Source: Spirochaetota bacterium (lineage in GTDB: Bacteria > Spirochaetota > UBA4802 > UBA5550). From it: a stretch of DNA of 32,601 nucleotides. Location of the stretch: the NCBI GenBank assembly GCA_003246895.1, contig QKCL01000075.1, forward strand, positions 1 to 32,601, in the 5' to 3' direction. A program made the position numbers and the translations under genes. This document shows positions 8,045 to 10,661 of the stretch, piece after piece (positions within the stretch are counted from its first letter, which is position 1; every line of letters begins with the position of its first letter). Under the pieces are notes generated by a model. The model saw nothing but the letters and a program-made list of their open reading frames with translations, was not told the DNA's origin and did no database searches.

Positions 8045-8917
8045 TTATCCGCCATAGGATTCAGCATATTTTTTGAAGGCGCTGCGCAGTTTCTCTGTGA
8101 CAGGGCCCACCTTCCCGTCGCCTATTGCCCTTCTGTCAGCAGTAACAACCGGTATGATCTCCGCTCCGCTTCCCGTGAGGAAGCATTCATCTGCCGTGTA
8201 CAGGTCATACTGGGCAAGGACAGTTTCCAGTACAGAAATCCCCTCCTGCTCCGCTACTTCAAGAACAGCCCCCCTTGTGATTCCACCAAGGGCGCCGCAG
8301 GTAAGGAGTGGTGTACACAGAACTCCGTCTTTTACAATGAATATATTATCGGCAGTGCATTCGGCAATGAAGCCGTCACGGTTCAGGATAAGACCCTCAG
8401 CCGCCCCGGACTGTTTTGCCTCAATCTTAGCCAGAATATTGTTAAGGTAATTCAGGGACTTGATTCTTGGGTCAAGTGAATCTACACTGTTTCTCCTTAC
8501 TGAAACACTGGCAATGGATATTCCGCTCCTGTACAGTTCCTCTGGATAGAGCTGGATATCGCCGGTTATGACAATTACAGATGCCCTGACGCATTTATCA
8601 GGGTCAAGCCCCAGGTCACCGCTTCCCCTTGTTACAACAGCCCTTATGTAGCCTGACTGCCCGGAGCCGCTCTTGCCGTTTATCTCAACTCCATCATTAA
8701 GTATCCGGGAAAACTCATCCCTGGTATAGGGAATTTCAAGAGAAAGGGCCTTTGCGCTTGCGTAGAGCCTGTCAACATGCTCCTTCAGTTTAAAAATTCT
8801 GCCGTTGTATATACGGAGCCCCTCGAAAACACCGTCTCCATAGAGCAGGCCGTGGTCAAATACTGAAACCACTGCCTGGTCCTTTTCAAAATATGAACCG
8901 TCAATAAATATCTTCAT
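8045..8917 (-). CDS. ilvE: Class IV PLP-dependent aminotransferase (branched-chain type)
   Basis: A 290-aa fold-type IV PLP aminotransferase. Signature segments are FDHGLLYGDGVFEGLRIYNG, Lys153 in RIKSLNYLNNIL (PLP Schiff base), the ECTADNIFIVKDG loop with Glu186, and GALGGITRGAV for phosphate binding. The pattern is closest to branched-chain amino acid transaminase, though D-amino-acid transaminase and aminodeoxychorismate lyase share this fold, so the symbol is provisional. A GAGGTG SD precedes ATG 8917. The start overlaps the TrmB-family gene by 4 bp (ATGA), so the pair is one transcription unit and the regulator may respond to a product or substrate of this enzyme. Confidence 0.85.
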   Translation of the reverse strand: MKIFIDGSYFEKDQAVVSVFDHGLLYGDGVFEGLRIYNGRIFKLKEHVDRLYASAKALSLEIPYTRDEFSRILNDGVEINGKSGSGQSGYIRAVVTRGSGDLGLDPDKCVRASVIVITGDIQLYPEELYRSGISIASVSVRRNSVDSLDPRIKSLNYLNNILAKIEAKQSGAAEGLILNRDGFIAECTADNIFIVKDGVLCTPLLTCGALGGITRGAVLEVAEQEGISVLETVLAQYDLYTADECFLTGSGAEIIPVVTADRRAIGDGKVGPVTEKLRSAFKKYAESYGG

Positions 8918-9717
8918 TTCAGCACCTCGTCTTTGAATATGTCCCGTAAAAGACTGTACCCGGGCCCGTATGTTTCTTCAAGAAGCTCCGGGAACCTGTT
9001 CACAACCTTCAATATATACACATCATGACTTATATAATCCCTGGCAAGAGCGGCAAAGACACTGCTTCTGCTCACAGTACCCTGGACCCTCTTTTCATTC
9101 AGGGTAGCTATTACGGCTTCATTGTCATCTCCGCAGATTACAAGCTGCCGTCCTCCCTTTTCTGCGAGAAGTGTATCCTTCACCGGATGGGAATACACTA
9201 TATCAATATCCGGCACAGAATCGCCGAACCAGACTATTGCCTTTCTGACCTTTTTGGGTTTCCGGGAAATCTGATTCACCAGTATTTCAAGGTCTTCCTG
9301 CCATCCGGACACAAGCAATGACCTGGAACTTCCGGTGATAATGTGTTTGCACTCCTCAATGAGTGTGTCATAATCACTTATATTTCGCAGGTACGAAATA
9401 TTTTCCTCCTGCCTGATCTGCGACAGCCCCTCGGAAAGCTCATCGAGCCGGTTTTCCATGGAATCCCTGTATTTCAGAACAAGCTTGTCCGGGTCCATGG
9501 GCATAAATTTCGGTTTTGCTCCGTCGCTGATTTCAAAGAGGGCTCCACGCTCCACAAGCCTTGAAATAACTTCATATATCTTTGAAGATGGGATTCCTGA
9601 ATTTTTCGAAAGTTCGTAAGCTCCGGCAGGATGTTTCTGCAGGAGTGAAACATAGGCCCTTGCCTCATATTCCGTGAAACCGAGTTCAGTCAGAAGCTGT
9701 ATATTATTAACTACCAT
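8914..9717 (-). CDS. TrmB-family transcriptional regulator
   Basis: A 267-aa TrmB-type protein. The N-terminal winged helix reads LTELGFTEYEARAYVSLL, then SGIPSSKIYEVISRLVERG, followed by a short coiled linker and the C-terminal sensor region (SRSLLVSGWQEDLEILVNQ). The family is abundant in archaea and scattered in bacteria, where ligands are usually sugars or other metabolites. An upstream in-frame TTG (9726) would add three residues, but ATG 9717 is preferred. No SD precedes it. A TATATT hexamer ends 10 nt before the ATG, so the mRNA may be nearly leaderless. The start codon lies at the centre of a 48-bp palindrome, which suggests autoregulation. It is followed by ilvE with an ATGA overlap. 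Confidence 0.85.
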   Translation of the reverse strand: MVVNNIQLLTELGFTEYEARAYVSLLQKHPAGAYELSKNSGIPSSKIYEVISRLVERGALFEISDGAKPKFMPMDPDKLVLKYRDSMENRLDELSEGLSQIRQEENISYLRNISDYDTLIEECKHIITGSSRSLLVSGWQEDLEILVNQISRKPKKVRKAIVWFGDSVPDIDIVYSHPVKDTLLAEKGGRQLVICGDDNEAVIATLNEKRVQGTVSRSSVFAALARDYISHDVYILKVVNRFPELLEETYGPGYSLLRDIFKDEVLK

Positions 9718-9740
9718 AGTAGTCAATAATATACAGCTTC
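9693..9740. promoter_or_regulatory. 48-bp near-perfect palindrome centred on the TrmB-gene start codon
   Basis: Two 24-nt arms match in 22 of 24 pairs: an outer 16-bp perfect stem (GAAGCTGTATATTATT and its complement), one mismatch, a 5-bp perfect stem (ACTAC/GTAGT), one mismatch, and the central AT pair. The regulator's ATG (9715-9717, minus strand) sits at the centre, and the first eight codons form one arm. In RNA the AUG would sit in the loop of a long hairpin. As DNA it would be an operator covering the -10 region and translation start. Confidence 0.75.
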
Positions 9741-9783
9741 AATTTTAGTCAAGCATCAAATGCCTCTTTTTTATATTTATTAG

Positions 9784-9860: not shown

Positions 9861-10661
9861 ATGGCGAATAAGAAACTGCAGGTTATTTACATTTCTCACG
9901 GAGGGGGTCCTCTCCCAATTCTTGGTGACCCTAGTCATGAAAAAATGAATTATTTCATGAAAACAATTCCTTCTTTATTAAGAAGACCAGATGCCATAGT
10001 TGTCATCAGCGCTCATTGGGAGGAGAGAACTCTTGCAGTTCAGGGGGGAGAAAACCCGGAACTTTATTATGATTATTACGGCTTTCCCGATGAAGCTTAC
10101 AGTATAAAGTATGCACCGCCCGGCAATCCGGAACTTGCAGGGATAATAAAAGATCTTTTCCTTGATTACAATATTGACTGCACCATAGATTCACAAAGAG
10201 GCTATGACCATGGACTCTTCATACCACTGAAGCTGATGTTCCCTGAGGCTGAAATTCCATCAATACAACTGTCTTTAAAAAAAGGACTTGATCCTGAATT
10301 TCACATTAATGTCGGTCGGGTTCTCAATAAACTTTCTGATGAAAATATACTGATAATAGGGTCAGGTTTTTCTTTTCACAATATGATGTTTTTTAACTAC
10401 ACCCAAAATCCCGCAGTTGATGAAAAAAACGATTCTTTTCAGAACTGGCTTATAGACATATGTACCGGTGAACATTCCATGGATAAACGAAAACAGGAAC
10501 TCATAAACTGGGAAAAGGTTCCTTCAGCAAGATACTGCCACCCAAGAGAGGAGCACCTGCTGCCGCTTCATGTATGCTGCGGGGCAGCACAGGCACAGGG
10601 GAGACTCGTTTTTGATGACTATATTGCAGGGAAAAGGGCTCTGGCCATCCTATGGAATTAG
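9861..10661 (+). CDS. LigB/class III extradiol-type dioxygenase (DODA/YgiD-like)
   Basis: A 266-aa protein of the class III extradiol ring-cleavage dioxygenase superfamily, in the DODA/YgiD branch. Metal ligands and the catalytic residue are visible: His13 in ISHGGGP, His52 in VISAHWEE, His117 in GYDHGLFIPL, His173 in GSGFSFHNM, and His232 in REEHLLPLHV. YgiD-type enzymes open catechol rings such as L-DOPA with O2 using zinc or iron. In a genome with an oxygen-sensitive hydrogenase the role is unclear, and some family members (MEMO-like) are not dioxygenases. The start has a weak SD. The gene is divergent from the TrmB-ilvE unit. Confidence 0.88.
   Translation: MANKKLQVIYISHGGGPLPILGDPSHEKMNYFMKTIPSLLRRPDAIVVISAHWEERTLAVQGGENPELYYDYYGFPDEAYSIKYAPPGNPELAGIIKDLFLDYNIDCTIDSQRGYDHGLFIPLKLMFPEAEIPSIQLSLKKGLDPEFHINVGRVLNKLSDENILIIGSGFSFHNMMFFNYTQNPAVDEKNDSFQNWLIDICTGEHSMDKRKQELINWEKVPSARYCHPREEHLLPLHVCCGAAQAQGRLVFDDYIAGKRALAILWN

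Follow-up and report, generated by a model that had tools for sequence, protein, structure and literature searches.

The window, as we call the whole stretch of 32,601 nucleotides analyzed here, carries on its minus strand a gene for a TrmB-like regulator of 267 aa (8914..9717) and, in the same operon, a gene for an aminotransferase of class IV and IlvE type (8045..8917, minus strand), which overlaps the trmB stop codon. Most of what is known of TrmB regulators comes from archaea. The N-terminal TrmB domain was recognized in Pfam (PF01978, 2.3e-18, residues 9-76) and by a PDB profile match to TrmB 3qph (3.4e-18). The best Foldseek matches were TrmBL2 and TrmB, and the TrmB sugar-binding domain 2f5t was also matched by a model whose pTM is only 0.53. 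The C-terminal effector domain PF11495 scored 19.4 bits, below its cutoff of 22.2, and the regulator stays far below the NCBIfam equivalog cutoffs. Judged from these profile and model matches, the protein is a TrmB-type regulator with a predicted wHTH, a dimer helix and a TrmB/PLD-like sensor domain. A divergent gene for a LigB-type extradiol dioxygenase (9861-10661, plus strand) adjoins the candidate operator described below, of which a second copy was not seen in the genome.

A palindrome with arms of 24 bp lies over the start of trmB and ends exactly at positions 9693 and 9740. Our recount gave 22 Watson-Crick pairs out of 24 with an unbroken outer arm of 16 bp, as the original prediction had described. 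The dyad axis falls between the A and the T of the ATG, and the 3' arm is made of trmB codons 1-8 plus one base, which bears out the further claims that the ATG is central and that the first eight codons form one arm. No other even-centred site with 24-bp arms in the window reaches at least 20 of 24 pairs. At the composition of the window, chance should yield 4.4e-7 palindromes with at least 22 of 24 pairs in 32.6 kb, or 5e-5 in 3.57 Mb; at local composition the figure is 3e-4. A search of the genome with the arm returned no second copy, which ruled out a mobile palindrome or repeat. The whole 48 bp had been taken as the element; the palindrome is real at this length, but only about 20 bp of it are conserved among relatives. 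It consists of the conserved core TTRACTACYATGGTAGTYAA, read as TTGACTACTATGGTAGTTAA at 9707..9726 on the minus strand, and of a 14-bp extension private to this lineage. In the extension, the coding-side arm (9693..9706) forms 14 further perfect pairs with the promoter-side arm (9727..9740), which lies inside the -35/-10 spacer and the -10 hexamer.

A total of 80 relatives were collected by an alignment search of named genomes, after a single-sequence scan had matched none. They come from Spirochaetota, Desulfobacterota, Nitrospirota and Deltaproteobacteria/Myxococcota, and most are metagenome-assembled. The core, ACTAC-N4-GTAGT, was found at the gene start in 80 of 80 relatives with few exceptions at single positions. 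When near-copies had been removed, 82 distinct trmB loci remained, each with the core at the beginning of the gene, and in 51 of them it is centred on the in-frame start codon. Ten other genomes of the window's order hold this trmB, and each of them has a palindrome on the ATG; the search turned up no member of the same genus for comparison. Conservation in orthologs, the check proposed with the original prediction, holds for the core in all relatives compared and does not extend to the 14-bp arms, which are absent in nearly all of them.

The site and the gene occur together. With at most one mismatch, the site is present in 11 of the 46 genomes of the order, exactly the 11 holding trmB, and always at trmB; when two mismatches are allowed, two further genomes match, at near-palindromes located elsewhere. 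In the genome of the window, a tolerance of up to three mismatches still leaves a single site, again at trmB. In 12 genomes containing other relatives, few places apart from the trmB site match the strict pattern; in the four with no strict match, the trmB site itself departs from it. No such operator was found at the TrmB genes of other subfamilies in the phylum (L127-L140). Since there is as a rule a single site per genome, this TrmB protein appears to control its own operon only. In one genome (G011, locus L007, C4:33518-33556), two overlapping operator copies are offset by 19 bp: the ATG carries one, the -35/-10 spacer the other.

The same palindrome was found off the start codon in many Nitrospirota and a few others. 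The operator centre reads (C/T)AAGG in four Nitrospirota loci (L034, L048, L050, L058), with the ATG 10-13 nt downstream, and this AAGG may serve as a Shine-Dalgarno (SD) sequence. Three other Nitrospirota loci (L057, L067, L074) have the operator first, and then an SD and an ATG about 25 nt on. A Thermodesulfovibrionia clade (L079, L088, L090-L092, L095, L096, L098, L099, L101-L103) carries the operator between the -35 and the start. As the palindrome occurs both on and off the start codon, it is the operator that stays constant, and where it lies relative to the start codon is secondary. The operator centre is free in sequence, and so it can double as the start codon, as in the window, or as an SD sequence, as seems to be the case in some Nitrospirota.

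Promoter elements were predicted upstream of the start codon. A -35 hexamer, TTGACT, is located at 9747..9752 (minus strand) and begins 35 nt upstream of the ATG's A, at the same place where relatives have TTGACA. In the start-centred loci TTGACA occupies -35 to -40, about 36 nt upstream, perfectly in 41 of 51 and with at least five of six matches in 47 of 51, and the hexamer at -13 to -8 is mostly TATATT, ATTATT, CATATT or AATATT. The -10 hexamer predicted in the window is ATTATT (9725..9730, minus strand), 7 nt before the ATG, with an overlapping TATTAT as a possible reading, the two lying 7-8 nt from the start codon; both of its promoter hexamers are weaker than those of the relatives. The TATATT pointed out originally does end 10 nt before the ATG. 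It was rejected as the -10, being only 13 nt from the TTGACT, while ATTATT/TATTAT agrees with the relatives. No SD-like motif was found in the window, as had been noted before, nor in any of the 51 start-centred loci. The promoter spacing and the lack of an SD sequence imply a leaderless mRNA with its predicted +1 at the A of the ATG (9715..9717, minus strand), and thus lend support to the nearly leaderless transcript that had been proposed. For three of the 51 loci (L088, L090, L091) the -35 is only 17-19 nt upstream of the centred start, so the real start may be downstream.

The first codons of trmB show a constraint on the DNA level. All 51 loci have GTA as codon 2, against 14.7% of the valine codons elsewhere in these genes (log10 P about -48, by a statistic that ignores relatedness). 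The residues MVVN stay with the ATG even though the first conserved glycine of the wHTH lies anywhere between 12 and 18 residues away. This codon bias, together with the tie of MVVN to the ATG, shows that nucleotides and not residues are kept. Moreover, the half-sites covary at position 8, with 35 Watson-Crick pairs against 27.0 expected (p 0.004), and the mispairs at this position among the 51 loci include nine A.C and only four G.U, the reverse of what RNA pairing would lead one to expect.

Beyond the 20-bp core, 46 of the 51 start-centred loci pair at or near chance. Long perfect extensions are present in the other five, with 17 further pairs in L085, 14 in the window, 12 each in L055 and L062, and nine in L045. 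The longest is a perfect palindrome of 54 bp on the trmB start codon of L085 (2975-3028). The outer-arm sequences of the five loci are unrelated to one another, and none of 2,550 cross-pairings reached 12 extra pairs. At least five changes are needed on the tree to account for the extension, though the window row is a long branch of unsure placement. The -35 to ATG distance is unchanged in the extended loci. The coding arm is an ordinary TrmB N-terminus in four of the five, which makes the promoter arm probably the copied one. Template-switch mutation at palindromes is a process described in E. coli (PMC7202029) and also beyond it (PMC8794818). Perfect arm identity was gained in single lineages with a different sequence in each, and this all-or-none pattern suggests template-switch mutation, which it fits better than graded selection. 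The 14-bp outer arms of the window would accordingly be lineage-specific, most likely copied by template switching between the arms of a pre-existing palindrome.

These observations are explained best by a core that is very probably the DNA operator of a TrmB dimer, through which a leaderless trmB-aminotransferase operon represses itself. A TrmB-family dimer would bind the core of about 20 bp at the start of its own gene, at a promoter of sigma-70 type with its -35 near -36 and its -10 at about -13 to -8, where transcription would begin at the ATG. The operator, the -10, the +1 and the start codon overlap, and a bound dimer should therefore exclude RNA polymerase from the operon. The dimer would then be released by a ligand, for which an amino acid or 2-oxo acid connected with the IlvE-type enzyme is plausible. 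The autoregulatory operator over the -10 and the start, which was one of the two original proposals, is strongly supported by the conservation across phyla, the co-occurrence of site and gene, and the promoter geometry: a conserved palindrome lies over the promoter of the regulator's own gene. A conserved operator at the gene's own start could act in activation instead; in one Nitrospirota clade it is placed between the -35 and the start.

The second original proposal was an RNA hairpin presenting the AUG in its loop, here a 22-bp stem with a UAUG loop that controls translation or stability of the mRNA. On the mRNA strand of the window both mismatches indeed become G.U, which is not the general pattern among the relatives, and the predicted hairpin is strong (MFE -39.2 kcal/mol, z -5.95); extended arms still pair though their sequence differs between loci. 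However, the 5' arm is the -10 and spacer DNA, upstream of the predicted transcript start, and the gene on that side is divergent; most relatives pair in the core only; and A.C exceeds G.U at position 8. With the off-start sites of Nitrospirota and a few others, we rejected the hairpin as very unlikely, and the strand-specific mispairs, the promoter position and the off-start relatives favor a DNA operator. It is about equally improbable that the site serves another DNA-binding protein. Binding by TrmB is itself a prediction, but the site occurs in exactly the trmB genomes of the order, usually once per genome and nowhere else.

Selection of the long outer arms themselves, for contacts of a larger complex or for a supercoiling-sensitive cruciform at the promoter, is unlikely but deserves more weight than either of these. 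The 9-17 further perfect pairs in five loci are far beyond chance, and in the window genome the arms cover the promoter. Against it, pairing outside the core stays near chance in 46 of 51 start-centred loci, and the extended arms have unrelated sequences, hence no common recognition, and require five changes or more on the tree. The probability that the palindrome is due to chance, a mobile palindromic element or an assembly artefact is negligible, given an expectation of 4e-7 in the window, a genome without a second copy, and a core shared by independently assembled genomes and isolates such as Desulfoluna. Beyond autorepression by TrmB at its own start, a wider reading has in our view an even chance of being right. 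According to it, an operator family in several phyla has its unread centre reused as start codon or SD sequence, so that a single 20-bp word serves at once as promoter, operator, transcript start, start codon and N-terminal code, and this word seeds repeated template-switch growth to near-perfect palindromes, about 38-54 bp long, across the promoter.

Autoregulated operons that are leaderless and have an operator across the promoter are already known, with AcuR, NreA and phage repressors as examples. The acuR-acuI-dddL operon of Rhodobacter sphaeroides is leaderless, its mRNA beginning exactly at the acuR AUG, and resembles the trmB operon in having the regulator gene first, an inverted repeat over the promoter as operator (putative here), and enzyme genes downstream; AcuR, however, belongs to the TetR family, and its operator TAATAGAC-n6-GTCTATTA lies upstream of the ATG and is not centred on it (PMC3017554). 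The leaderless nreAXY repressor operon of Mesorhizobium is autoregulated by NreA (CsoR/RcnR family), and its operator occupies the -35/-10 spacer, an arrangement shared with the Thermodesulfovibrionia relatives, but protein and operator are unrelated to ours and the start codon is outside the operator (PMC12724321). Lambda cI and PY54 cro/cI are likewise repressor genes with leaderless mRNA and operators nearby; they are phage switches in which the operator is not over the start codon (PMC4488713). Archaeal TrmB, TrmBL1 and Tgr of Pyrococcus, Thermococcus and Halobacterium are of the same protein family and have palindromic sites; where they repress, the site often covers the transcription start, and autoregulation is reported for some (PMC4158304). 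Those sites read TACT-N3-AGTA, TATCAC-N5-GTGATA and TACT-N7-8-GAGTA, in contrast to ACTAC-N4-GTAGT, and belong to archaeal TATA promoters and sugar genes, with no start-codon-centred site described in the review (PMC4158304).

We found no report of this operator, or of a bacterial TrmB with an aminotransferase, in the open-access literature. New are the TrmB subfamily, its operator, the fact that this operator sits on the start codon in more than one phylum (several in all), and the recurrence of the extension. A bacterial TrmB subfamily thereby gains a precise predicted operator, promoter and operon. It also offers a clear case of a protein whose first residues are set by a predicted DNA-binding site, and the five apparently independent perfect arm extensions form a natural experiment on template-switch mutation at a palindrome with a function.

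The aminotransferase gene is located downstream of trmB in 62 of the 82 loci. In the loci without it, the next genes, identified by inspection, include those for isoleucyl-tRNA synthetase, histidinol-phosphate aminotransferase, malate dehydrogenase and glutamate synthase; the Thermodesulfovibrionia clade lacks the downstream aminotransferase gene and has varied neighbours (ileS-, mdh-, hisC- and bioA-like by inspection). An amino acid or 2-oxo acid as ligand is a reasonable guess, no more. Two Manganitrophus loci (L080, L100) have a diverged operator, GTCACTAC-N4-GTAGTGA(C/G), some 75 nt ahead of the trmB region that was matched, and a glutamate synthase-like gene after trmB.
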